A program made the position numbers and the translations under genes. The notes under the pieces are model-generated. The model was given only the letters and a program-made list of their open reading frames with translations, searched no databases and was not told the DNA's origin. Of a stretch of DNA of 64,000 nt, positions 43,248 through 56,447 are shown one piece after another. This stretch comes from Halpernia frigidisoli (GTDB lineage: Bacteria > Bacteroidota > Bacteroidia > Flavobacteriales > Weeksellaceae), in NCBI RefSeq assembly GCF_900113805.1, contig NZ_FOQT01000001.1, forward strand, positions 848,411 to 912,410, in the 5' to 3' direction. How positions within the stretch are numbered: the stretch's first letter is position 1; the number at the start of each line of letters is the position of its first letter.

Positions 43248-43323
43248 TTTTTATAAGAAATTTTAAATCTTAAAATAAACAGGTCTCAAATTAAATTATT
43301 TAAAAATCCTGATTAAATTAAAA

Positions 43324-43370
43324 AGAGCCTGACAATAGTTTTTTAATTTTATTATCAGACTCAATTAAAT
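43324..43370 (-). terminator. Imperfect terminator hairpin of the molybdenum hydroxylase operon
   Basis: GAGcCTGAcAATA (43325-43337) pairs with TATTaTCAGaCTC (about 43351-43363) with two internal mismatches, just past the large-subunit stop at 43376 on the minus strand. Confidence 0.5.
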
Positions 43371-43375
43371 TTATT

Positions 43376-45640
43376 TTAAACGGTTTTAATATTCTTTAAA
43401 TATTTCTCCTCAATATCTATCATAAAAGGCTGATTGTAATAGCGTTTATTATTTGCTTTATAAAGCGCATTTGCCAAAGCAGCGATTGCCGGCGGAAAAG
43501 GTGGTTCACCCAGACCGGTTGGATGAACGTCATTTTCAACAAAATGAACTTCCACATCACGTGGCGCATCATTATTTCTCATCAACTGATATGTGTTATA
43601 ATTTTTCTGCTCAGGTTTACCGTTTTTAATAGACAACTGCGTAAAAAGTGCGTGACCAATTCCGTCAACAGTTCCACCTTCTATCATATTTGAAGCTCCT
43701 AACGGATTGACAACTATTCCACAATCAACAGCGCAATATACTTTTTCGATAATTGGTTTTCCGTTGTCCATACGCAATTCCACAATATCCGCGACGTAGC
43801 TGTTATGACAATAGTAAGCAGCAACACCTCTACTAACATTCGGTTTTGGCTTACTCCAATCTGATTTTTCTTTAACTAATTTTAAAACTCCTGCATAACG
43901 TTTTGCATCATAATCATTCTTTTTGCCAACTGGATTTTTAATAGCGCGGTCAAAAAGTTCAAGTCGAAAATCAATCGGATCTTTTCCCGCTGCTTCTGCA
44001 ACTTCATCTAAAAAAGCCTGTTCTACCGCTCCCATAAAATTGGAATCCGGTGCACGGAAAGCTGCTGTCGTAATATTCGAATTAACAGTCCATTCTTCCG
44101 CCAAGTAATTATCAACTGCACCCGCTGGAAAACGGTTTTCATATAAAGGACTATCCGGAATACCACCAACTTTTTGATGATAAGCGATCAGATTATTATT
44201 TTTATCTAAAGCTGCGCGAAAATAAGCCAGGTAAGTTGGGCGATAATTCCCAAAAGTCATGTCATCTTCTCTCGTGTAAATTAATTTTACAGGTTTTTTG
44301 ATTTTTTGAGAAATCAGAGCAGCTTCCAGTAAATAGTGTCCGTAAAGTTTTCTACCAAAACCGCCACCAATACGCGTCATTTGAATATCTACTTGATCTA
44401 AAGTTAAACCCAAACGTCTTGCGACAGATTTTTCCATAAATTCGGGCGTTTGAATAGAACCTTTAAGTTCAGCTTTATTTGCTGTAACGTCAGCATAAAA
44501 ATTAAGCGGTTCCAACGGACTGTGCGCCAAATATGGTGCGGTATAAGTACTTTCAATAATTTTTGCCGCATTTTTAAATGCCGTTTCAGGGTCTCCGTCT
44601 TTCCGAACTTCTTTACTTTTTTCTTTATTTTTAGCGAACATTTGTTCATAATGGCTTTGCGTATTTTCCAAACCAGAAGGTACTTTCGTCACTTTACCAG
44701 GTTTTCCACCCATTCCCTGAGATTTAACTTCATAAGAATCAAAAGGAATCCATTCTGCCGTTATTAATTTTTTTGCTTTCATGATTCTCCAAGTAGAATC
44801 ACCTGTGATCACTATAAATTCAGGAAAAGCAGAAGTATCAAAAGCGCCACGCTCAAAATCTTCAGGATACGCATTTAAAGAAAACACATCAAAAATACCT
44901 TTTGACGCAAGTGCTTCTTTTGCTTCAAAACTTTTCAATTTCATCCCAAAAGCTGGTGGATGAAGTACTGAGGCAAAAACCATATTATCTCCGTAAACAT
45001 CAAGTCCAAACTGTGCTTTTCCGGTTACAATTCCCGGCCCTTCCACATTAAACTGAGGATGTCTGACGATATTAAAATCTTTGATATTCTTTACTTCCAC
45101 TTCTTTTGGAACAGGAATTTTTGCCGCAGCGGAAGCCATTTCACCAAAAGTTGCTTTTTTACCGCTTTTTTTATGAGAAAGAATTCCCATATTAACTTCA
45201 ATTTCTGAATCCGGAACATTCCATGATTTTGCCGCTGCCTGAACTAACATTTTTCTTACGGCAGCTCCAGCCATTCTTAGCGAATCCCAGCTTTCCTTGA
45301 TCGACTGACTTCCGCCAGCCAATTGTCTGGTAAAAATAGCTGTATTTAAAGGTGCCTGAACTACTTTTACGTTTTTCCAGTTTACACCTAATTCTTCAGC
45401 AACGATCATCGGCATAGAAGTTTTTACGTTTTGACCAACCTCCGGGTTTGGTGAAGCTATTGTAACTGTTCCGTCCGTATCAATTTTTATAAAACCATTA
45501 AGTTGAAAACCGCCTTTTATAGTAGGATCTTCTCTTACAACTGCTGAAAGCCAGCTAAATTGCAGCATCAATCCCGCACCACCCAACGCAGATAATTTTA
45601 AAAAAGAGCGTCTATTTAAATGTGTTTGTATTTTTGCCAT
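43376..45640 (-). CDS. Molybdenum hydroxylase large subunit (IorB/xanthine dehydrogenase family)
   Basis: 754 residues. A twin-arginine signal (RRSFLKLSALGGAG) predicts export across the inner membrane with its cofactor. The molybdopterin-binding segments GGGFGRKLYG and GTVDGIGHALFTQL are present, and the catalytic Glu lies in TGLGEPPFPP near the end. This matches the isoquinoline 1-oxidoreductase beta group of the xanthine oxidase family, which hydroxylates N-heterocycles or aldehydes. It is followed upstream by the 2Fe-2S subunit (gap 2 bases) and the cytochrome (28 bases). Its substrate cannot be read from the sequence. Confidence 0.93.
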   Translation of the reverse strand: MAKIQTHLNRRSFLKLSALGGAGLMLQFSWLSAVVREDPTIKGGFQLNGFIKIDTDGTVTIASPNPEVGQNVKTSMPMIVAEELGVNWKNVKVVQAPLNTAIFTRQLAGGSQSIKESWDSLRMAGAAVRKMLVQAAAKSWNVPDSEIEVNMGILSHKKSGKKATFGEMASAAAKIPVPKEVEVKNIKDFNIVRHPQFNVEGPGIVTGKAQFGLDVYGDNMVFASVLHPPAFGMKLKSFEAKEALASKGIFDVFSLNAYPEDFERGAFDTSAFPEFIVITGDSTWRIMKAKKLITAEWIPFDSYEVKSQGMGGKPGKVTKVPSGLENTQSHYEQMFAKNKEKSKEVRKDGDPETAFKNAAKIIESTYTAPYLAHSPLEPLNFYADVTANKAELKGSIQTPEFMEKSVARRLGLTLDQVDIQMTRIGGGFGRKLYGHYLLEAALISQKIKKPVKLIYTREDDMTFGNYRPTYLAYFRAALDKNNNLIAYHQKVGGIPDSPLYENRFPAGAVDNYLAEEWTVNSNITTAAFRAPDSNFMGAVEQAFLDEVAEAAGKDPIDFRLELFDRAIKNPVGKKNDYDAKRYAGVLKLVKEKSDWSKPKPNVSRGVAAYYCHNSYVADIVELRMDNGKPIIEKVYCAVDCGIVVNPLGASNMIEGGTVDGIGHALFTQLSIKNGKPEQKNYNTYQLMRNNDAPRDVEVHFVENDVHPTGLGEPPFPPAIAALANALYKANNKRYYNQPFMIDIEEKYLKNIKTV

Positions 45641-45642
45641 TA

Positions 45643-46101
45643 TTACATTTCTTTTGCGGCGGTTCTAATTGCCCGGTTTATACGTGTATAAGTCGCACAT
45701 CTGCATAAATTCCCATTCATTGCACGTCTTATTTCTTCATCTGAAGGATTTGAATTTTCTTTTAAAAGCGCCGAAGCCGTCATGATCTGACCTGCCTGAC
45801 AATAACCGCATTGCGCGACGTCATGTTCCAGCCAGGCTTTTTGCACCGGGTGATCGCCATTTTTTGAAAGACCTTCTATTGTTGTAATTTTTTTACTTAA
45901 AACTTCACTCACAGGATAAGCGCAAGATCTGATTGCTTTTCCATCTAAATGTACAGTACAAACGCCGCAGTGAGCGATGCCACAACCAAATTTAGTTCCC
46001 AGTAATCTTATATCATCTCTTAAAATCCACAAAAGCGGTGTATCTGAATCAACATCAACTGTATGTTGTTTTCCGTTTATATTTAAATTATATGTTGGCA
46101 T
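45643..46101 (-). CDS. (2Fe-2S) subunit of the molybdenum hydroxylase (IorA-like)
   Basis: 152 residues, the complete two-cluster subunit. The plant-ferredoxin-type cluster uses Cys in GCGIAHCGVCTVHLDG and RSC; the second uses CGYCQAG and CRC in GNLCRCATYTR. It passes electrons from the molybdenum centre towards the cytochrome. There is no signal peptide; it is probably carried through the Tat pathway as a partner of the large subunit. Two bases separate it from that gene. Confidence 0.94.
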   Translation of the reverse strand: MPTYNLNINGKQHTVDVDSDTPLLWILRDDIRLLGTKFGCGIAHCGVCTVHLDGKAIRSCAYPVSEVLSKKITTIEGLSKNGDHPVQKAWLEHDVAQCGYCQAGQIMTASALLKENSNPSDEEIRRAMNGNLCRCATYTRINRAIRTAAKEM

Positions 46102-46129
46102 AATCCAATTATTTTTTTATTTATATTAT

Positions 46130-46768
46130 TTATTTGGCCGGAGCATAAGCACCATTATCGATCCATGTGTACCAAACTTTTGCAAATTCTTCATGAGATA
46201 ATGGCGGCAAAGTTCTGCCACCGCCCATTAGCCAGCCACCTTTTACCAAACCATCTTCAGCATGTTCTCTTAAAGCTTTCATATCTTTTCCGCCGTTTTT
46301 TTTGGGATCAACAAGTTGTATCGCCAGTTCCCTTGCAGATTTTCCCTGAAAAACCATTTTCATATTCATTGGTGGTAAATGCCAGTCAGGATTTCCCGGT
46401 GGCGTATTTTCTCCTGGAACACCTTTCGCAGCGTGACACGTAATACATTGCATTGTTGCAATTCCTTTTCCATCAACACCTCTTTCAGGTAACATATTGT
46501 GGATATGACTGTCATCGCCCTGCAAAGGAATATCTCCGGAAGGATGGCAATTCATACATCTTGGACTCATTAAAACACTGTAAACTTTTTTAAAAGCTTC
46601 AACTGATGCAATACTATCCTTTTTCTGAGATTTTATAATTGAAGAATCTCTGCTGTCAACAGCTGTCATTGTTTTTTCAGTTGTCGCGTAGACAAAAATT
46701 GAAACGCTTAAAATAGAAAAAGCACCAACTTGAAAAAAAATATTCTTTTTTCTTTTATTTATATTCAT
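46130..46768 (-). CDS. Dihaem cytochrome c of the molybdenum hydroxylase
   Basis: 212 residues from the ATG at 46768, chosen because it opens an anchor of the type NKRKKN plus a hydrophobic helix; the frame extends to 46816 but that part adds nothing recognisable. Two haem c sites, CMNCH and CITCH, each sit in a cytochrome-like setting (MNCHPSGDIP, ITCHAAKGVPG). It probably receives electrons from the 2Fe-2S subunit and feeds them into the respiratory chain. Cytochrome partners of this kind are common next to periplasmic Tat-exported IorAB-type enzymes. Confidence 0.85.
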   Translation of the reverse strand: MNINKRKKNIFFQVGAFSILSVSIFVYATTEKTMTAVDSRDSSIIKSQKKDSIASVEAFKKVYSVLMSPRCMNCHPSGDIPLQGDDSHIHNMLPERGVDGKGIATMQCITCHAAKGVPGENTPPGNPDWHLPPMNMKMVFQGKSARELAIQLVDPKKNGGKDMKALREHAEDGLVKGGWLMGGGRTLPPLSHEEFAKVWYTWIDNGAYAPAK

Positions 46769-46935
46769 GTATTTTTTTATTTGAAATTGAACTTTGTGAG
46801 AATTACCAATTGACAAAATTTTTAAACTTTAATTTAAAAAACTATCAATAGGTTTAAATACTATCGTAAATCTAATAAAATAGTAAGAAAATTTACTTAA
46901 CCAAATCCAATTTAGACTCATTCTAAATTCGGAAT

Positions 46936-47811
46936 TTATCTGATTTTTTGAATGATCGGATTAAAGGCTTTTGAAGCAACATTAACAAAATCACCGATAG
47001 AAATATCAACAAGATCAGAATCTTCCGCAATTATTTTTACAAAGTTTTTTTCTATTAAAACGGTGATAATATTCAAAAATCCTTCTTTTTTAATATTAAT
47101 AACTTCACCCGTAAACTGGAATTTTCCACTCACTTTTTTGTTGGAAAATATATCGATTGGTTTTCCATTTTCTTTGATAGAGCCATTTTCCAAAATAAAA
47201 ATTTGATCTGCCATTTTTACAATTTCACTGATTGAATGGCTTACTAAAATAGTGGTCAATTTATATTGTTTGTGAATTTTTAAAACATAATCCTGCAACT
47301 TTAATCTCATTTTAAAATCAAGCGCCGAAAAAGGTTCATCAAGTAATAAAATTTTTGGCTGCCGAACTAAAGTTCTCGCCAATGCCACCCTTTGCTTTTG
47401 TCCGCCGGACAGATTCTCAGGTTTTTTATTTTGCAATTCTTTTAACTCAATTAATGCGATCAATTCATTTACTATCTTTTCATTTTGACCTTTATCCAAA
47501 GCATAAAGTAAATTTTCACGAACAGTCATGTTTGGAAAAAGCGCATGATCCTGAAATAAGAATCCAATATTTCTTTTTTGCGATTTTAAATTAATATTTT
47601 TTTCACTGCTAAATAAAATCGCATCATCAATCAAAATACTACCTTTTTCAGGTTGCATTAATCCGGCAAACATTCTTAGAACGGAAGTTTTTCCTGCACC
47701 GGAATCACCATATAATGTTGTAAATGAACCTTTTTCAATAGTCATTTTAATATCCAGATTCATCATTCCGTTTTCTGAATCTAATTTTTTTTGAAGATTT
47801 AAATTTATCAT
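46936..47811 (-). CDS. modC: Molybdate ABC transporter, ATP-binding subunit ModC
   Basis: 291 residues. Walker A YGDSGAGKTSVLRM, signature LSGGQKQRVALARTLVRQ, Walker B ILLLDEPFSALD and the His switch LVSHS are intact; about 60 C-terminal residues (FQFTGEVINIKKEGFLNI) form a TOBE-like regulatory domain. It powers molybdate import through ModB. Its ATG overlaps the modB stop by 4 bases (ATGA). It is the last gene of the mod operon before the 167-base gap to the cytochrome gene. Confidence 0.93.
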   Translation of the reverse strand: MINLNLQKKLDSENGMMNLDIKMTIEKGSFTTLYGDSGAGKTSVLRMFAGLMQPEKGSILIDDAILFSSEKNINLKSQKRNIGFLFQDHALFPNMTVRENLLYALDKGQNEKIVNELIALIELKELQNKKPENLSGGQKQRVALARTLVRQPKILLLDEPFSALDFKMRLKLQDYVLKIHKQYKLTTILVSHSISEIVKMADQIFILENGSIKENGKPIDIFSNKKVSGKFQFTGEVINIKKEGFLNIITVLIEKNFVKIIAEDSDLVDISIGDFVNVASKAFNPIIQKIR

Positions 47812-48482
47812 TTTGAAATACGGTTTAAATAACCGCCATTTACCAAATAAACAGACAGTAAAATTAGAAACGAAATAATAAAAAGTATGAATGAATAAGT
47901 ATTTGCGGCGGAATAATTCAGCATTTCAACTTCATCATAAATAGCGATGGAAGCTACTTTTGTTTGCCCTGGAATATTGCCACCAATCATTAAAACAACG
48001 CCAAATTCACCGATTGTATGGGCAAATGAAAGTATTATTCCCGTTAACAGCGACGGTTTTATATTTGGTAAAAGAATCTTAAAAAGCGTAGTCGTTTTTG
48101 ATTTTCCCAACATGTATGATGCTTCCGACAGGTTTTTAGATAAATTCGAAAATCCGGATTGAATTGGGTGAACCATAAATGGCAAACTGTAAATGACAGA
48201 TGCGATGACTAAACCCGGAAAAGAAAAAATTAATTTTAAACCAAAATAATTTTCTAACCAGGCTCCGAAAGAATTTGCCGGACTGAAAGCGATCAAAAGG
48301 TAAAACCCCAAAACTGTTGGCGGCAAAACCAAAGGCATACTTACCAAAGTTTCAATGACAGGTTTTATTTTAGATTTAGAATTTGACAGCCAAAATGCAA
48401 GTGGAATTGCCAAAAAAAACAATAAAATTGCCGTTATGAATGCGAGTTTAAAGGTCAAAAATAAAGGTTGCCAATCTATCAT
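47808..48482 (-). CDS. modB: Molybdate ABC transporter, permease subunit ModB
   Basis: 224 residues with five membrane helices. The family loop MPLVLPPTVLGFYLL and the EAA motif (LSEASYMLGKSKTTTLFKI, then LPNIKPSLLTG) are present, followed by FAHTIGEFGVVLMIGGNIPG, a strong ModB mark. It forms the membrane channel for molybdate. The ATG overlaps the stop of the di-Mop gene by 4 bases, and its own stop overlaps the start of modC by 4 bases, so the three are translationally coupled. Confidence 0.95.
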   Translation of the reverse strand: MIDWQPLFLTFKLAFITAILLFFLAIPLAFWLSNSKSKIKPVIETLVSMPLVLPPTVLGFYLLIAFSPANSFGAWLENYFGLKLIFSFPGLVIASVIYSLPFMVHPIQSGFSNLSKNLSEASYMLGKSKTTTLFKILLPNIKPSLLTGIILSFAHTIGEFGVVLMIGGNIPGQTKVASIAIYDEVEMLNYSAANTYSFILFIISFLILLSVYLVNGGYLNRISK

Positions 48483-48877
48483 TCGGAGATCATTATTTCA
48501 TTTGTTTTGATAAGCGCTGTTACTTTATCACCAATTTTAAGTTGAAGTTGTTCTACCGCAAATGTCGTAATAATTGATTTTACAAAGCCAATTTCGGTTT
48601 TTATTTCAACTTTACTTAGAAGAACATCTTTTTCAATATTAGAAATAATGCCGGAAATTTTATTCTGCATACTTATAAAATCTACATTTCTCTTCGCAAG
48701 AACGACTTCAGTTTCTTTAAAATAAAGATTTACCGATTGATTTTCTTTTAAATAATCTGCAGTTTCCGGGGTTTCCAGCAAAATGGTTTTAAATAAAACA
48801 TCGTCCACAAGAATTTGCACCAAAGACAAACTTTCTGAACTTTCAATTTTAGTAATTTTTCCCTGAAATGTGTTCAT
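48479..48877 (-). CDS. Di-Mop/TOBE molybdate-binding protein
   Basis: 132 residues made of two tandem TOBE/Mop-type repeats of about 65 residues: the first begins GKITKIESSESLSLVQILVD and the second begins ISGIISNIEKDVLLSKVEIK, each ending in a beta strand with Val-Leu or Ile-Met. Such proteins bind molybdate or tungstate in the cytoplasm and act as storage or sensor. It lies between modA and modB and overlaps modB by 4 bases. No separate ModE-like helix-turn-helix protein is near, so regulation may be direct. Confidence 0.8.
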   Translation of the reverse strand: MNTFQGKITKIESSESLSLVQILVDDVLFKTILLETPETADYLKENQSVNLYFKETEVVLAKRNVDFISMQNKISGIISNIEKDVLLSKVEIKTEIGFVKSIITTFAVEQLQLKIGDKVTALIKTNEIMISE

Positions 48878-48885
48878 TTAAATTT

Positions 48886-49635
48886 TTATTTATAACCGTA
48901 ATTTACCATAATTTTGTTTGCATCAGGAGAAAATAAGAAGTCATAGAATTTTTGTGCATCTGCATTTTCGGCATTTTTATGCTTTATTACAACAACGCCT
49001 TGCGCAATTGGCGAATAATCACTTTCATTAACATCGATCCAGCTTCCTTTTCCTTTCATTTCAGGTGATAAAACTACAGATTTTGCAGTAAAACCAATTT
49101 CTGCCGCTCTTGAAATTATAAATTGATTGGTTTGAGAAATACTTTCCCCGAAAACAAGCTTATTTTTTATAACATCGTAAAGTTTCATTTTTTCCAAAAC
49201 TTCCACCGTTGCCTTTCCATACGGCGCTAATTTTGGATTTGCAACTGCAATATGTTTAATTTTATCTGTTGTCAAAATATCAAATGATGGTTTTACATCT
49301 TTATTAATTGACCACATGACTAATTTTCCGTAAGCGTAAATTTCTGGTTTTTTAATCGTAAATCCAGCTTTGTAAAGTTCTTCTGGATACTTCATATCTG
49401 CAGAAATAAAAATATCAACTGGTGCATTTTGCTGTATTTGCGCGGTTAATTTGCCTGAAGAACCAACATTTGTTTCACATTGAATACCTGAAATTTCTGT
49501 GAATTTTTTAATTAAATCTTTCATGGCGAACTGCATATTGGCGGCAACTGCAATGTTTAATTTTTTAGTTTCCTTCTCCTTACAGGAAAAAATTACAAAA
49601 AAAACTGCTAGAAAAAGAGGAAGTAATTTCTTCAT
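48886..49635 (-). CDS. modA: Molybdate-binding periplasmic protein ModA
   Basis: 249 residues. A lipoprotein signal (LFLAVFFVIFSCKEKE) anchors it. The body has the ModA pattern: LNIAVAANMQFAMKDLIKKF, TNVGSSGKLTAQIQQNAPVD and IFISADMKYPEELYKAG near the start, VFGESISQTNQFIISRAAE and KSVVLSPEM later. It captures molybdate (or tungstate) and passes it to ModBC. Eight bases separate it from the di-Mop gene and 7 from the DUF2490 gene. Confidence 0.95.
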   Translation of the reverse strand: MKKLLPLFLAVFFVIFSCKEKETKKLNIAVAANMQFAMKDLIKKFTEISGIQCETNVGSSGKLTAQIQQNAPVDIFISADMKYPEELYKAGFTIKKPEIYAYGKLVMWSINKDVKPSFDILTTDKIKHIAVANPKLAPYGKATVEVLEKMKLYDVIKNKLVFGESISQTNQFIISRAAEIGFTAKSVVLSPEMKGKGSWIDVNESDYSPIAQGVVVIKHKNAENADAQKFYDFLFSPDANKIMVNYGYK

Positions 49636-49642
49636 TTTAAAA

Positions 49643-50398
49643 TTATTTTGATTTAGAAATATTAATTTTTTGTGTTACACCCAGCCAAATTATATTAGCT
49701 TGATTGTAAGTTCCAACTGTTTTGGTCGAAGCAAACTGATTATTATAGGTTAAAGATGCTGAAAAATTTTTGTCTAAAGTAACGATCGTTCCAATGAGCA
49801 GGCGGTTTTGATCAAAAACATTACTTACAATCTCCTTTCCTGCATTGATCATAATTTCATCTCCAACACTCAATGCAACATTTTTTGTTGGATCTGTCGA
49901 AGATAATTTAAAAACTGGAACAGTAAATAATAATCTGTAGCGAAACCTAAAATTAAAATCACTTCCAGATTTGATTTTATCGTCAACTACAGGGTTAAAA
50001 AAACGTTCTTCTAATCTAAACCTGTGCTGAATTGTTACCGGCTTATAAATAGTGCTCATATTAAATTCCTGATATGGCCGAAATTCTACCCTGTTTATTT
50101 TTCCAGAATTGTCATAAAATCCCAAATGAGCAAAACCGGCACCTACAGCCATACTGCTATTAAGTTTGTAATAAATTCCCGTTCTCACAATATATTGCGA
50201 ACTATTTTCAAGATCATTTTTCCAGCGAAAGCCGCCGTCTGTGAAGAGCGTCCATTTATCGTTGAATTTTAATTGAGTGTAATATTGGATCCACTGTTGG
50301 TTTTCCCGGTTAACTTTTTTTTCCTGAGCAAAACTTTTTAATCCAACGAGAAAAGATACCAAAATTATCATTCTTTTAAACATAACAGTAAACTTCAT
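49643..50398 (-). CDS. DUF2490 outer-membrane beta-barrel protein
   Basis: 251 residues. A signal peptide (MIILVSFLVGLKSFAQ) is followed by an antiparallel beta barrel pattern (QWIQYYTQLKFNDKWTLFTD, GIYYKLNSSMAVGAGFAHLG) ending with FSASLTYNNQFA and a final Trp-rich strand, which fits the DUF2490 family of Bacteroidota. The function is unknown. It is the first gene of the mod operon, so it may be an outer-membrane pore for the oxyanion; this is inference. The start could be at 50398 or 50383; both keep the signal peptide. Confidence 0.75.
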   Translation of the reverse strand: MKFTVMFKRMIILVSFLVGLKSFAQEKKVNRENQQWIQYYTQLKFNDKWTLFTDGGFRWKNDLENSSQYIVRTGIYYKLNSSMAVGAGFAHLGFYDNSGKINRVEFRPYQEFNMSTIYKPVTIQHRFRLEERFFNPVVDDKIKSGSDFNFRFRYRLLFTVPVFKLSSTDPTKNVALSVGDEIMINAGKEIVSNVFDQNRLLIGTIVTLDKNFSASLTYNNQFASTKTVGTYNQANIIWLGVTQKINISKSK

Positions 50399-50637
50399 TT
50401 GTATTTTATATTGGTTTTGTGGCTTTAAAAATACTCAAAAAGTTAAAAATATTTTATTTTGAATTTACTAAATATAAAAACATAGATTTTTTTCGTCAAT
50501 AATATTTAAATTCTCACATCATTCAAGCTATAATTTTACATTATTAAAAATTAAAATGGAAATATTTTCTTATAAAGTAAAACAATACCAATTAATTATA
50601 GTATTTTTATTAAATTAGGTTTTTAAAAAAAATTGTT

Positions 50638-53529
50638 ATGAAAAAATTAATTATAAATTTATTTTTTATTTTTCAATTTCTTTTTATACAAATTTCCTAC
50701 TCTCAAAATTACAATCTTACTAATAGTTTTACAACAAAAGATGGCTTACCAAGCAATTTGATCTATGAAACCTTGCAGGATAACAGTGGATTTCTTTGGG
50801 TAGCTACTGACAATGGAATATCCAGGTTTGACGGTAAGAGATTTATAAATTATTCTACAAAAAATGGATTACCTTCTAATGATGTTATCCAGATCATCAA
50901 ACAAAATGATGGTACGATCTGGGCAAATTGCTACAAACAGGCGCCAAGTTATTTTAATGCGCAACTTAATCGTTTTGTCTGTTTAGAATATGACGCTTTT
51001 GTTTTAGAAATAAGTAGTGACTTGTTTAGCATGATCTATAAGATTTTAAAAAATGAGTTGTTTTTTGAGAATTATAACGGAAGTTTCATTTTTAAAGAAG
51101 GTAAAATAACTAATAAAAAAAAATTCAATAAAGTTGATATTGAAAATAGAATTACTGAGATCTATTTGAAAAATCAGAAAATTGTACTTAAACAAGATAT
51201 TAAAATTAACGGAATTGACAAAAATGTAACCAGTCAATTTTATAAAGAAAATATCTACTTGGGAAGTATAAAAATTGACTATAAAAATCAATTAATTAAC
51301 AGTCAGGTAGATAATAACTCTTTATATTGGTTCACTAAAAATAAAGTATATCAAACTCAAATTATTGATTTAAAGCCTTTTAAATATAAAAGTAGAAATA
51401 TAAATATTTCTAAAAATATAAAATGGCATACATTTTCCGAGGGGAAATTAAATATCACATGTACAGATGGAACCGTTTTGATTTATGATGAAAAAACACT
51501 GCAATTATGCAGTACCATTAAAAATAAATTTAATGTAAACACTTCCTACGTCGATCATCAAAATAATGTTTGGGTTTCTACAATAAACAATGGTTTAATG
51601 TATTATACCAATCAAAATATAAAAAAAGAACAATTTTCTGATAGAGCAATCACCAATTTCTTATGTGCTAAAATCTCAGATAACGGGGAAATAATTGCGG
51701 GTAATTATCAGGGTGAAATTTATGTGAAAAAAGGTAAAAGCGAACAAAAATATAATTTTAGCCAAATAAAAGAAAATAATCTTTGGATCAGAAATATCCA
51801 TTTTTTTCCAAAAAAAACTATTGTAGTTTCCGATAATGGAATATTAACAAATTTTAAAAAAAACAGCACTTTTTTAAATTCAAGAAATGAACGGTTAAAT
51901 ATAAAATCTTCCCTAAAAATAAATGAAAGTGACTTGATTTTAGGCAGCATTCAAGGTTTAATAAAATATAATGTAATTACAGAGAAATATGCAATTTTAA
52001 ATTTCCCAAAGGAAAGAATACTTAATTTAAAAAAAATTAATGACTCCTGTTTTTATTTTTCTGCCAACGAAGGTTTGTATGAATATCATTTAAATAAAGA
52101 TAAATACCAACTCCTTATTTCAAATAAAAACTTTAAAAATGATAAAATAGAATATTTTGAAAATATTTCGGCTTCTAAAATCTGGATAAGTACTTACAAA
52201 GGCCATTTATTTTTTTTAGATCATCAAAAAACAGTGCTTAAATTTATTAATGACAGGAGACTTCCACTCAATATTTCAAAATTAATACATATTGGAAATC
52301 AACTCTGGATCGCTTCCAAATCAGGAATTTATGTAGTGAATTATGATGACTTAAAATCTATTTCTGTTTCAAAAATCAGCACTTCAGATGGTTTAACTTC
52401 TAATGTTATAAACTATCTTGACTATAAAAAAGACACTGTATATGCGGCCACAGATATGGGTATTTCTAAAATTCCATCTAAATTCATTAAGACAAATTTT
52501 ACGGTAAAACCTCATCTTATTGATGTAAAGATAAACGGCAAAAATGTTGCTTTAAATTCAAAATATGATCTAAAAAGTAATGAAAATAATATATCTCTAG
52601 AATTAGCAGGTGTAGATTTAACGGGGCATTTTAAGAATTTTCAGTACGCTGTTAATAGTAATAATTTCACAGATATTAATGGAAATTTTCTAAATCTTCA
52701 GCTTTACAGTGGTTTAAATAAGATCATTATTAGAGCGACAAACGAAAATAATGAGGTTCAAAAAGATCAAATTGTGTTAGTTTTTGATATTGCAACGCCT
52801 TTTTACAAAGCCATTTATTTTTGGATTATTTTAACGATCCTTATTTCTGCTACCATATTTTATTTAGTAAACAGACAAAAATTTTTAAGACAAAAAAGAA
52901 AATTTCTACAAAGATTAGAAATTGAACGTGACCGCAATAAAATTACCTCAGATTTACATGATGATCTCGGCGCGTCATTAAGTAGTTTGCAGATTAACAG
53001 TTCGATTGCGCAAAAATTATTTGACAAAAATCCTTTAGAAGCCAAAAAAATTCTTAAAAAAATTGAATTTCAAGCGAAAAATATTTCAGAGAATATTGGG
53101 GATATTATTTGGAGCTTAAAACCTACCAAAAATGAATTTATGTCGCTAAGCACGAGAATTAAGAAAATAACGAGCGAAATTTTGGGCAGTTCAGATATTA
53201 ATTATAAAATACAGATTGATGAAAAAATTAATGATGAAATTACAGATTTTTCAGCAAGGAAAAACATTATCTTGATAATCAAAGAATGCCTAAATAACAT
53301 TTTAAAACACAGTGGGGCAACAAAAATGAACCTCATCATTGAAAAAATTGATGAAAATTTTTTAATCGAAATTTCTGACAATGGTATTGGTTTTAAAGAT
53401 TGCGAAAATAAAGGAAATGGCTTGACAAATATTGCAAAGCGCACAAGAGAATTAAATGCAAAACTCGAAATTTTGTCTTGTGATGGTACAAGCATAAAAT
53501 TGGAAGTCCCTACATTTAGGGAAGTTTAA
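50638..53529 (+). CDS. Large sensor histidine kinase with propeller repeats and Y_Y_Y domain
   Basis: 963 residues. Signal peptide (about 1-22), then a long periplasmic region of two-component-regulator propeller repeats (for example DGLPSNLIYETLQDNSGFLW, NGISRFDGKRF, NGLPSNDVIQIIKQNDGTIW) up to about 620, a Y_Y_Y domain (about 625-718), one membrane helix (about 722-745) and a HisKA_3 kinase with phospho-His774 in SDLHDDLGASL. The ATP-binding part has ISDNGIGF and GNGLTNIAKR. The kinase type pairs with LuxR-like regulators, and the neighbour gene is one. It senses something in the periplasm that cannot be named. Codon use is markedly AT-rich. Confidence 0.92.
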   Translation: MKKLIINLFFIFQFLFIQISYSQNYNLTNSFTTKDGLPSNLIYETLQDNSGFLWVATDNGISRFDGKRFINYSTKNGLPSNDVIQIIKQNDGTIWANCYKQAPSYFNAQLNRFVCLEYDAFVLEISSDLFSMIYKILKNELFFENYNGSFIFKEGKITNKKKFNKVDIENRITEIYLKNQKIVLKQDIKINGIDKNVTSQFYKENIYLGSIKIDYKNQLINSQVDNNSLYWFTKNKVYQTQIIDLKPFKYKSRNINISKNIKWHTFSEGKLNITCTDGTVLIYDEKTLQLCSTIKNKFNVNTSYVDHQNNVWVSTINNGLMYYTNQNIKKEQFSDRAITNFLCAKISDNGEIIAGNYQGEIYVKKGKSEQKYNFSQIKENNLWIRNIHFFPKKTIVVSDNGILTNFKKNSTFLNSRNERLNIKSSLKINESDLILGSIQGLIKYNVITEKYAILNFPKERILNLKKINDSCFYFSANEGLYEYHLNKDKYQLLISNKNFKNDKIEYFENISASKIWISTYKGHLFFLDHQKTVLKFINDRRLPLNISKLIHIGNQLWIASKSGIYVVNYDDLKSISVSKISTSDGLTSNVINYLDYKKDTVYAATDMGISKIPSKFIKTNFTVKPHLIDVKINGKNVALNSKYDLKSNENNISLELAGVDLTGHFKNFQYAVNSNNFTDINGNFLNLQLYSGLNKIIIRATNENNEVQKDQIVLVFDIATPFYKAIYFWIILTILISATIFYLVNRQKFLRQKRKFLQRLEIERDRNKITSDLHDDLGASLSSLQINSSIAQKLFDKNPLEAKKILKKIEFQAKNISENIGDIIWSLKPTKNEFMSLSTRIKKITSEILGSSDINYKIQIDEKINDEITDFSARKNIILIIKECLNNILKHSGATKMNLIIEKIDENFLIEISDNGIGFKDCENKGNGLTNIAKRTRELNAKLEILSCDGTSIKLEVPTFREV

Positions 53530-53573
53530 ATTGCTATTTTACTTCTAAATTTGTTTAATAATTTAAAAAATTA

Positions 53574-54185
53574 ATGATCCGCATATTTGCATTTGACGAT
53601 AGTACTGAAAGACTCCAAAGTCTGAAAGCGCTCATTTCTTTAAGCGACAATTTAGAATATGTTGGCGAAGCAGGAAATTGTGAAAATGCATTAGAAAAAA
53701 TGGAAAAATATGTTCCAGATGTAGTTTTAATGGACATTAATATGCCCGTCGTCAATGGTTTGGAGGGTTTGAAATTGATAAAATCAAAATTTCCACAAAT
53801 AAAAGTGTTGATACAAACTGCTTTTGATGATAGTGATAAAATTTTTAAAAGTATTTCTGGCGGTGCAAGTGGTTACATTTTAAAATCTGACTCTGCTACC
53901 CGAATTTTACAAGCTATAGAAGAAGTTTACGAAGGTGGCGCTGCAATAAACCCAGCAATAGCGAAGAAAGTTTTAGAATATTTCGCACCTAAAAAATCTG
54001 TGATTCTGACTGTAAAAGAACAGGAAGTTTTAAAATATTTGGCTGAAGGTAACAATTACAAAATGGTTGCAGACCAATTAGGCGTGAGTTATTCTACCAT
54101 CAATTCTCACACAAAACACATTTACGAAAAACTGCATATTTCTTCATTAGGCGAAGCGATTGCCTGGTATTACAAAAATCTTTAA
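53574..54185 (+). CDS. LuxR/NarL-family response regulator
   Basis: 203 residues. A receiver domain has the phosphoacceptor Asp in VVLMDINMPVVNG and the Lys in YILKSDSA. The C-terminal NarL-type helix-turn-helix (LTVKEQEVLKYLAEGNNYK, then MVADQLGVSYSTINSHTKHI) binds DNA. It starts 44 bases after the kinase stop and is its obvious partner. A terminator follows at 54215, so the KGWDG-repeat gene downstream is transcribed separately, perhaps as a target. Confidence 0.95.
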   Translation: MIRIFAFDDSTERLQSLKALISLSDNLEYVGEAGNCENALEKMEKYVPDVVLMDINMPVVNGLEGLKLIKSKFPQIKVLIQTAFDDSDKIFKSISGGASGYILKSDSATRILQAIEEVYEGGAAINPAIAKKVLEYFAPKKSVILTVKEQEVLKYLAEGNNYKMVADQLGVSYSTINSHTKHIYEKLHISSLGEAIAWYYKNL

Positions 54186-54214
54186 ATTTTTATTTTTCAT
54201 TTCAAATTTTACTT

Positions 54215-54239
54215 ATCCCTATTTTTAGGGATTTTTTTG
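54215..54239 (+). terminator. Terminator after the response-regulator gene
   Basis: ATCCCTA (54215-54221) pairs with TAGGGAT (54226-54232), loop TTTT, followed by a T-run. Confidence 0.85.
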
Positions 54240-54284
54240 TGTTTAAAATTCAATAATCTTTGTACTACATTTTAAAACATAACT

Positions 54285-56132
54285 ATGAAAACACTTCAAA
54301 GAATTTTAATGTTCTTCTTTGTGATATCAATTTGCGTAGTGCAAGCACAAGGAAAAACCAAAGGAAAAATAGTATATCCTGGTCCGAAAATGCCGAGACT
54401 TATACTTTCTGCTGGGTACGGAAATACAATTCCGAGTTCAAGCACAAAAGATGCTTATTTCACCAACTCATCTGGGATTAGTGGTGATTTATTTGTTCCA
54501 TTTTTACTTTTTAGAAAAGGTTGGGATGGAACCGTAAAAGGCGGAAACTATGGATTTAATATTGGCGGAAGTTACAACTTCGGAGGTAACGGAAATCCTT
54601 CTCCAACTTTACCGGCTGCATTTCCTGTTACGGGTCAAACTTCAAGTTCCGTTGCTTATAGAGGTGTAGATCCAAAAAATCCTGGTTTTAGAATTGGCGG
54701 TGGTCCACAAGTCAACTTTTATTTAATGAATCACCTTCTTCTTTCGCCGATGGTTTTGGCAGAATATTTTAGTACCACACAAAAAACCTTAAGTGCGGTA
54801 CAGACAACGCAAGTAAAGGGACAATCCACAGACTATAATCTTCTTACTTTACCAGAAACTAAAACTACAGGTTTTTCTGTCACTCCAAAATTGAGAATGT
54901 CATATTTCTTCGGAGATAATTTTGGAATTTTTGCTGATGCGGGATATATTTTCGGCCCAAAAGTTAACACACAAATGACATCTTTAAAACCAGAAGGAAA
55001 TTCCAATCAAGCGGGACAATATAACCAACAACAACTGGATTTTGGGACGCAAGTTAAGAATGCTTTATCTACTTCTTACAGTGCTTTTGCGGTAAACATA
55101 GGTTTGAGTTTTGCTTTTGGCGGGAAGAAAGTGGGGGTGAAAAGTGTTCAGTCGCAAGGACAAACTTTTGGACAAAAAGTAGCCAGTGGCGTTGCATCAG
55201 GTATTACTGTGGTTTCGCAAGGTACAAAGAAGACAGATGGTAAAGGTTGGAATGGAGTTGCTAAAACTGATGACAAAGGATGGAACGGTAAAACTGAAGT
55301 AAAGGATAAAGACTGGAATGGAGTTGCAAAAAAAGATGGAAATGGAGCATCCGATGCAGGATATCATGTTCAGGAATTTAATAATGGTTGTACTAGAACC
55401 TGCACAGGAGATTGGTCTTCATTATCGGGAGGAGGTTATAGTTGTGATGGCACCGCGGGTCCTTTAAATTGTAATGGTATGGGTAATACATTATTGCGAG
55501 AAAACAATAATCAGAATAATCAAAATTTTGACAGTGATGGAAATATAAAACCAAAAATGACAAAAGCAGATTCAGGTAAAAAACAAGACAAAGTTGCCAG
55601 AAAAGGTTGGGACGGCACAGTAAAAGGCGGAAGTAAAAGAATTAAGGACAATGATATGCCAAAATATGCAACTGAAATTACTGCAGGTTCTCATAAACAT
55701 TGGGAAGATTACGCATTCAGTTGCCGTCCAGGTGGTGGATTTGAATGTATAGTTCCTTTTGTTAAAGGAAGTAGCAGTAAATTAGAAATAGATCAATCCA
55801 AAGGTTTTGGATGGGCAATAGAAAATGAAGAGGGTAATTCTATGATAATATTTAATCTGACAGAAAACAATCTTTCGCCCGCAACATATAAATCTCTAGT
55901 AAAAGATAAAACTATGGAAGTTGTAGATAATACTTTTATCCCAAAGGATTTTGTAAAAAAAATGTTTTTAGATGCAGGTATAAAAGATATACCAACCGAA
56001 GTTAAAATCCCGCCTGGCATCTATAATGTAGATGTAAACGGTAATCCTCAACCTGATAATTTTAAAGTCAAGATTACTATTACAATTACAAAAGATCCCT
56101 TTATTATTAAAATAAGAATCGAAGTATATTAA
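54285..56132 (+). CDS. Exported protein with KGWDG/KGWNG repeats, family unknown
   Basis: 615 residues. Signal peptide (about 1-21, ending VVQAQ). Residues 35-285 look like an outer-membrane beta barrel (MPRLILSAGYGNTIP, GFRIGGGPQVNFYLM, PKLRMSYFFG, AFAVNIGLSFAFGG). Residues 319-351 are three tandem 11-residue units (GKGWNGVAKTD, DKGWNGKTEVK, DKDWNGVAKKD). The sequence RKGWDGTVKGG occurs twice, at 77-87 inside the barrel and at 439-449. After it, two Cys-rich stretches (CTRTCTGDW ... SCDG ... LNCNG; SCRPGGGFEC) and a soluble tail to 615. I recognise no family. It follows a kinase-regulator pair and has its own promoter region. Confidence 0.65.
   Translation: MKTLQRILMFFFVISICVVQAQGKTKGKIVYPGPKMPRLILSAGYGNTIPSSSTKDAYFTNSSGISGDLFVPFLLFRKGWDGTVKGGNYGFNIGGSYNFGGNGNPSPTLPAAFPVTGQTSSSVAYRGVDPKNPGFRIGGGPQVNFYLMNHLLLSPMVLAEYFSTTQKTLSAVQTTQVKGQSTDYNLLTLPETKTTGFSVTPKLRMSYFFGDNFGIFADAGYIFGPKVNTQMTSLKPEGNSNQAGQYNQQQLDFGTQVKNALSTSYSAFAVNIGLSFAFGGKKVGVKSVQSQGQTFGQKVASGVASGITVVSQGTKKTDGKGWNGVAKTDDKGWNGKTEVKDKDWNGVAKKDGNGASDAGYHVQEFNNGCTRTCTGDWSSLSGGGYSCDGTAGPLNCNGMGNTLLRENNNQNNQNFDSDGNIKPKMTKADSGKKQDKVARKGWDGTVKGGSKRIKDNDMPKYATEITAGSHKHWEDYAFSCRPGGGFECIVPFVKGSSSKLEIDQSKGFGWAIENEEGNSMIIFNLTENNLSPATYKSLVKDKTMEVVDNTFIPKDFVKKMFLDAGIKDIPTEVKIPPGIYNVDVNGNPQPDNFKVKITITITKDPFIIKIRIEVY
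55239..55337 (+). repeat. Three tandem 33-base units coding for KGWNG repeats
   Basis: Three consecutive 11-codon units encode GKGWNGVAKTD, DKGWNGKTEVK and DKDWNGVAKKD. Related single units occur at 54513-54545 and 55599-55631, which encode identical residues but differ at three third-codon positions. Confidence 0.75.
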
Positions 56133-56237
56133 AAATCAAGTTGAAAAATGAAATATTAATCGAAAATAAATTTTCTAAACAAGTACAGTTTTTGAAAGAG
56201 GTTGCGAACAGACATTTTAACAATTAAGTGCTAATAG

Positions 56238-56268
56238 AAAAATCCTTCGATAATTTCGAAGGATTTTT
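56238..56268. terminator. Bidirectional terminator between the KGWDG gene and the tRNA-Asp genes
   Basis: AAAAATCCTTCGA (56238-56250) pairs with TCGAAGGATTTTT (56256-56268), loop TAATT. It lies one base past the 3' end of the tRNA genes on the minus strand. Confidence 0.9.
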
Positions 56269-56269
56269 G

Positions 56270-56343
56270 CGATCCGGACGGGACTCGAACCCGCGACCTC
56301 CGCCGTGACAGGGCGGCATTCTAACCAGCTGAACTACCGGATC
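56270..56343 (-). tRNA. tRNA-Asp (GTC), downstream copy
   Basis: 74 bases on the minus strand. Acceptor stem GATCCGG with CCGGATC, D-loop AGCTGGTTAGA, anticodon stem CCGCC/GGCGG around CTGTCAC (anticodon GTC, Asp), T-arm GCGGGTTCGAGTCCCG and discriminator G. CCA is not encoded. It is identical to the second copy at 56374. Confidence 0.95.
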
Positions 56344-56373
56344 AATTTTTTTAAAAGAAATTGTAACTTTTTG

Positions 56374-56447
56374 CGATCCGGACGGGACTCGAACCCGCGA
56401 CCTCCGCCGTGACAGGGCGGCATTCTAACCAGCTGAACTACCGGATC
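56374..56447 (-). tRNA. tRNA-Asp (GTC), promoter-proximal copy
   Basis: Same 74 bases as the copy at 56270, 30 bases away and on the same strand, so both are cotranscribed. Anticodon GTC (Asp), discriminator G, no encoded CCA. Confidence 0.95.

Follow-up and report, generated by a model that had tools for sequence, protein, structure and literature searches.

Our analysis indicates that an OmpA-like outer-membrane protein encoded in a 64,000-nucleotide stretch (the window) of the 3.0 Mb genome of Halpernia frigidisoli is quite probably under the control of a dedicated two-component system that acts through a pair of palindromes. The sensor kinase, the NarL-type regulator and the 615-residue exported protein are all encoded on the plus strand of the window. 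A first-pass annotation of this DNA had described the three genes, which we confirmed, and had suggested that the exported protein may be a target or partner of the kinase. Its role as a target of the kinase-regulator pair is supported by the conserved gene order, by an operator-like palindrome common to both promoters, and by the restriction of this palindrome to regulator-bearing genomes among the 20 genomes searched. The proposed site, its position and its probable targets are all readable from sequence alone, and a family of OmpA-like proteins that has no wall-binding domain and carries a species-specific tail and a repeated peptide thereby gains an entry point. The features of the locus are as follows.

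Positions 50638 to 53529, plus strand: sensor histidine kinase, 963 aa, with Pfam Reg_prop, HisKA_3 and HATPase_c.
Positions 53507 to 53522, no strand assigned: palindrome 1, TCCCTACATTTAGGGA, in the last kinase codons; proposed regulator-binding site at the regulator's own promoter.
Positions 53546 to 53553, plus strand: -7 box TAAATTTG, consensus, 23 nt after palindrome 1; proposed regulator promoter.
Positions 53574 to 54185, plus strand: NarL/LuxR-type response regulator, 203 aa, with Response_reg and GerE.
Positions 54216 to 54231, no strand assigned: palindrome 2, TCCCTATTTTTAGGGA, followed by a T-run and previously annotated as a terminator; proposed regulator-binding site at the barrel promoter.
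Positions 54255 to 54262, plus strand: -7 box AATCTTTG, off-consensus, 23 nt after palindrome 2; proposed barrel promoter.
Positions 54285 to 56132, plus strand: 615-residue exported protein with an OmpA-type barrel, a word-repeat linker and an orphan C-terminal tail.
Positions 54381 to 55139, plus strand: eight-stranded OmpA-type barrel domain, residues 33-285, from the predicted model and fold matches.
Positions 54513 to 54545, plus strand: word copy 1, RKGWDGTVKGG, residues 77-87, in the beta2-beta3 turn.
Positions 55239 to 55337, plus strand: three tandem 11-residue relatives of the word, residues 319-351, in the linker.
Positions 55560 to 55577, plus strand: second shared linker word, TKADSG, residues 426-431.
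Positions 55599 to 55631, plus strand: word copy 2, RKGWDGTVKGG, residues 439-449.
Positions 55632 to 56129, plus strand: C-terminal tail, residues 450-615.

The palindrome has the consensus TCCCTA-N4-TAGGGA and stands about 27 nt ahead of a TTTG at both places. In Flavobacterium psychrophilum, according to PMC9723704, the -7 consensus for the primary sigma factor reads TAnnTTTG and spans -12 to -5. Palindrome 2 was found in 18 of 19 cassette loci, being absent in Filimonas (L052), and TTTG followed it at 26-27 nt in 17 of these 18 (it was missing in L053). Palindrome 1, which codes for or overlaps the last residues of the kinase and, in the window, precedes the regulator by about 50 nt, was detected with at most two mismatches in 17 of 18 loci, all 17 of which have TAnnTTTG with its TTTG 25-28 nt downstream; at site 1 of L050 there was no clear palindrome, two poor candidates being tied and the box following just one of them. 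Since the consensus box spans -12 to -5, the palindrome would span about -51 to -36 and be centred near -44, within the range of about -41 to -44 expected for the centre of a promoter-proximal activator site at a fixed distance to the -7 box. Activators in contact with RNA polymerase bind at such a position.

Shuffled controls did not reproduce these distances. The site-2 spacing was found in 12 of 13 representative loci, whereas 3000 dinucleotide shuffles gave 0.48 on average and never more than 4; the site-1 spacing was found in all 12 representatives, whereas 3000 base shuffles gave 0.03 on average and at most 2. The loci are related, and therefore these counts are not independent. Between palindrome and box, the median identity of the DNA across 10 representatives was 47% (range 24-88%), the window and L044 being 88% identical in this interval, and L059-L063 are near-identical rows. 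In addition, the base at the putative position -12 was T at site 1 in 17/17 loci and never T at site 2 (17/17). Two genomes found through the regulator alone had both palindromes, the 27-nt spacing and this -12 difference.

The occurrence of the palindrome followed that of the regulator. The exact sequence TCCCTANNNNTAGGGA, searched in 20 whole genomes, was present in all ten with the regulator and in none of the ten without it; the latter comprised G006, G125 and eight genomes picked before the palindrome was looked for there. In eight of the ten regulator-bearing genomes the exact palindrome occurred exactly twice, with both copies flanking the regulator gene. G165 had one exact copy and a second with one mismatch, and G175 had two exact copies, one in the cassette, where site 1 carries one mismatch, and the other elsewhere. 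A stricter pattern, requiring the T-run and a spacing of N2-8, occurred once each in 8 of 13 genomes and missed the regulator-bearing genomes of L049 and L058, which have longer spacing. Downstream of the extra palindrome of G175 (L124, position 7719) are a lipoprotein gene and a further gene of the outer-membrane barrel-like kind. We did not count this palindrome as a third target, as its direction is ambiguous: the T-run and the TTTG at 27 nt are on opposite strands.

The regulator itself contains a receiver domain and a LuxR/GerE helix-turn-helix (PF00072, 2.3e-21; PF00196, 2.4e-14), as do NarL/FixJ-type response regulators, which likewise have a palindromic site at promoters; here, however, the putative site is nearly cassette-specific. 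Our thin literature search found no published counterpart of TCCCTA-N4-TAGGGA, nor any description, in Bacteroidota, of a promoter site recognised by a NarL-type regulator that is paired with a propeller kinase. Because the palindrome is found at both promoters, at a fixed distance from the -7 box, and its presence is tied to the regulator, it is most likely that the regulator activates both its own gene and that of the barrel. The link between regulator and target is well supported by these sequence patterns, and from them we infer binding and regulation. The propeller kinase would sense a periplasmic signal and, as expected for its family, phosphorylate the NarL-type regulator, which in turn would bind the TCCCTA-N4-TAGGGA palindromes, as their footprint in the sequence suggests. 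Palindrome 1, at the 3' end of the kinase gene, would drive the gene of the regulator itself from a consensus -7 box, with a predicted +1 at about 53558, and palindrome 2 would drive the barrel gene or operon from an off-consensus box, with a predicted +1 at about 54267. As its -7 box is off-consensus, the barrel promoter would depend on an activator. The combination of a weak box and an upstream dyad at the barrel gene with a full box at the regulator gene thus agrees with a target that depends on the activator and a regulator that is basally active and controls its own gene.

Not all loci conform to regulator-dependent activation. The half-sites are separated by 4 nt in most lineages but by 11-12 nt at site 2 of L049, L050 and L058, a distance poorly explained by a rigid dimer site. 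In addition, Filimonas has no palindrome 2, L053 has no site-2 TTTG, and three barrel loci (L048, L056 and L057) have no such regulator alongside.

The earlier description of the barrel gene as following a terminator was correct in that a hairpin (54215-54232) followed by a T-run exists, but this is not the whole story, since there is a second copy without a T-run at 53507-53522 and the distance to the promoter box is fixed. At 54215-54238 a seven-pair stem with a 4-nt loop and a T-run has a predicted folding energy of -9.1 kcal/mol. A T-run of four or more T follows palindrome 2 in 18/18 loci, whereas palindrome 1 has none; only palindrome 2 has both the hairpin and the T-run of an intrinsic terminator. 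These features, which also fit the need for a terminator and in this respect weigh against regulator-dependent activation, would be expected if palindrome 2 were only the intrinsic terminator of the regulator transcript, kept by chance or descent, with an unrelated barrel promoter. We consider this improbable: a second copy devoid of a T-run lies in the coding end of the kinase gene in most loci, both copies keep a fixed distance to a -7 box, the presence of the palindrome is tied to the regulator, and both copies change together in L058. The altered half-sites TCCCTT/AAGGGA occur at site 2 of L050 and at both sites of Flavobacterium paronense (L058), the only locus with a joint change of both sites; the two sites differ in L049. 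There is, by contrast, a real if somewhat less than even chance that palindrome 2 has a dual role, serving in DNA as the activating site of the regulator for the barrel gene and in RNA as the end of the regulator transcript. The T-run is kept at site 2 only (18/18), and the dyad and spacing are kept at both sites, as a dual role would require; however, the T-run may have its role in the promoter region around -33 instead. At the Rfam gathering threshold nothing was matched at the palindromes, and the matches in the window were two tRNAs and one L19-Flavobacteria ribosomal leader (RF03130, 22552-22579). The 3' end of the kinase gene (window 53507-53529) and of its relatives encodes last residues such as IPKFRD and IPRFRE; because the operator-like palindrome encodes or overlaps these residues, the protein tail and the DNA site are constrained together.

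The gene order was retained in relatives: 17 of the 20 named loci have the kinase and regulator genes ahead of the barrel gene or its operon (the exceptions being L048, L056 and L057; the L044 kinase was included by alignment, at 34% identity). The cassette was found in Kaistella (Weeksellaceae), Frigoriflavimonas, Chryseobacterium, Flavobacterium, Flavobacteriaceae records and a Filimonas MAG. In a sample of 197 genomes of the family, the barrel was present in 11 and a regulator ortholog of at least 68% identity in 12. In all 12 a barrel gene follows the regulator; it belongs to the family of the window protein in ten and is of the canonical OmpA type in two (G193 and G012), where the genes after the regulator encode a protein with a barrel, two CarboxypepD_reg stretches and PF00691. 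This implies that the regulator stays with an OmpA-like target even where the barrel family differs; in these two relatives the regulator ahead of the canonical OmpA protein has the same palindromes. In G125, one of the 11 genomes with the barrel, the barrel gene is broken, the 19 kb examined contained neither kinase nor regulator, and the genome had no regulator ortholog and no exact palindrome. In the sister species G006, the ClC gene (located left of 43250 in the window) is directly followed by one tRNA-Asp and a thioredoxin gene, and about 13 kb corresponding to window 43250-56238 is absent from that place. This stretch comprises a molybdenum hydroxylase-like pair, a modABC-like transporter, a DUF2490 gene and the cassette, and the window has two tRNA-Asp copies (56269-56447) versus one in G006. 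Neither the barrel nor a regulator ortholog was found elsewhere in G006, which implies that the cassette is accessory, through either gain or loss.

The kinase consists of a signal peptide, a propeller-type periplasmic domain, one membrane helix, HisKA_3 and HATPase_c. In a model of moderate confidence (mean pLDDT 66), the best fold matches of its periplasmic part were the BT4663, BT4673 and BT3049 sensors, and the Foldseek E value of 9e-29 to 4a2l fits a periplasmic propeller sensor. The BT4663-type sensors of Bacteroides also combine a propeller-type periplasmic sensor with a membrane kinase, but they are hybrids with a fused regulator, whereas here a HisKA_3 kinase and a NarL-type regulator are encoded by two separate genes. 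The closest solved sensor is the heparin-sensing BT4663 domain, and we give about even chances to the possibility that this kinase senses a sugar or another nutrient, with the barrel being a downstream porin or adhesin and its repeated words unrelated to the kinase. The word repeats of Pedobacter, where no propeller kinase is adjacent, point the same way and weaken direct sensing of the word by the kinase, which is nevertheless possible. Against nutrient sensing, the kinase, regulator and barrel alone recur across the clustered loci, and no sugar-use gene is among them, although neighbouring genes were annotated unsystematically.

The 615-residue protein had been described as belonging to no family. 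Indeed, it had no Pfam or NCBIfam match at E<=1, PF00691 included, and a barrel-profile sequence search of the PDB gave no match, but its N-terminal half has a clear OmpA-type barrel fold. The model, built from 22 aligned sequences, was confident at residues ~39-278 and poor elsewhere (mean pLDDT 57.6). Residues ~33-285 matched the eight-stranded outer-membrane barrels of OmpA, NspA and OprF with Z 16-17, and the matches of the confident part, from Z scores and Foldseek, also included OmpW. On our assignment of strands and topology, the eight barrel strands would be 39-50, 62-78, 85-100, 134-147, 151-166, 192-208, 213-235 and 255-278, strands 118-127, 169-177 and 180-189 would be outer extensions of the barrel, and both barrel termini would be periplasmic, as in OmpA. 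The N-terminus, linker and tail are accordingly predicted to face the periplasm by analogy to the OmpA-like fold. The protein resembles OmpA and OprF in barrel fold, size and orientation of the termini. However, these consist of an eight-stranded barrel and a periplasmic C-terminal PF00691 domain, while the window protein lacks PF00691 and has a repeated word and a long, species-variable tail. The first-pass annotation had proposed checking for a barrel plus a Cys-rich domain; the barrel was predicted, but no domain was resolved in the low-confidence tail. When residues 436-615 were searched against 395 genomes sampled across the phylum, the only match was in the genome of the window itself. 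Homology of this tail to that of L058, suspected by eye, was unsupported (BLASTP E 6.0).

The repeat of RKGWDGTVKGG at residues 77-87 and 439-449 was confirmed, the 33-nt DNA copies differing at three positions that are all silent (GAT/GAC, GGA/GGC, ACC/ACA), as were the three tandem 11-residue relatives at residues 319-351. The longest exact repeat seen in 2000 shuffles of the protein was 7 residues, compared with the 11 observed, and the probability that all of three random changes in the word are silent is about 0.012. The first-pass annotation had attributed this to selection on the peptide, which agrees with the recurrence of the core in relatives with many silent codon changes, but some copies vary past KGW[DN]G. 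In the listed set, 22 of 24 KGW[DN]G copies were in barrel proteins, and the core codons vary silently throughout. Copies at the N-terminus and in the turn mostly read RKGWDG[TV]VKGG (the exceptions being RKGWDGWPKT in the turn of L051 and L047, a copy ending KGH in that of L044, and KGWNGITK at the N-terminus of L047), and linker copies mostly read KGWNG, with D instead at window residue 439 and in both L047 linker copies. An extra copy lies directly before strand 1 in Kaistella, and two copies directly follow strand 8 in Frigoriflavimonas.

With OmpA-like strands and termini, word copy 1 would be located in the first periplasmic turn. As its copies are placed ahead of strand 1, in the turn between beta2 and beta3 or behind strand 8, KGW[DN]G would be a periplasmic-side peptide, on the same side as the kinase propeller. 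This does not apply to every repeated word, since GVDPKNPGF, a form of which also ends two proteins, was found in a predicted outer loop. Our preferred guess is that the word serves as a conserved docking peptide in the periplasm. It is a long shot that the system forms a closed loop, in which the kinase would read its own target, the KGWDG words would ring the periplasmic barrel mouth as a multivalent peptide ligand, the amount or assembly of the barrel would set kinase activity, and the palindrome would be an operator in DNA and a terminator in RNA.

The words could also be functionless relics of small in-gene duplications, a reading to which we assign roughly one chance in three. Lineage-specific words (KGWDG, VKGGKNPGG, SISEKG, GHVTLL), their near-confinement to the barrel gene and the divergence of some copies after the core would suit relics, but the 11-residue unit recurs at places that are separate in the structure, its codons differing silently from genus to genus, and the identity between the two window copies stops at the unit's edges on both sides. 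The barrel occurs without KGWDG in Lutibacter (L048) and in Chryseobacterium, Pedobacter and Filimonas members; most barrel members of the latter three have VKGGKNPGG at the N-terminal place. The KGW[DN]G DNA pattern matched 28 times in 12 genomes, against 3 times for the reversed-pattern control, and by coordinates 20 were in the barrel gene, two in one other exported protein of G133 and six in unrelated or short frames. For GGKNPG there were 10 matches in 13 genomes versus one in the control, nine in the barrel gene and one (G585) in an unrelated protein. As the matches of both patterns are nearly confined to the barrel gene, the words are unlikely to be a dispersed mobile element or a genome-wide peptide tag. 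Of 197 genomes, 9 contained the GHVTLL pattern, which had fewer matches than its reversed control and thus is no general repeat. The literature search found no mention of KGWDG or GHVTLL.

In Kaistella chaponensis (L046, 14862-15476), a small exported protein without a barrel, encoded by the same gene as the G133 protein with the two KGW[DN]G matches, contains KGWNG twice and TKADSG, and ends exactly with KGVDPRNPGF, a word of the barrel loop. GHVTLLK/R occurs at N-terminal or extreme C-terminal positions in the products of L058 7245-9317, L047 7986-9971, L050 5585-7495 and L146 3767-4693, the last of which carries it without a barrel.
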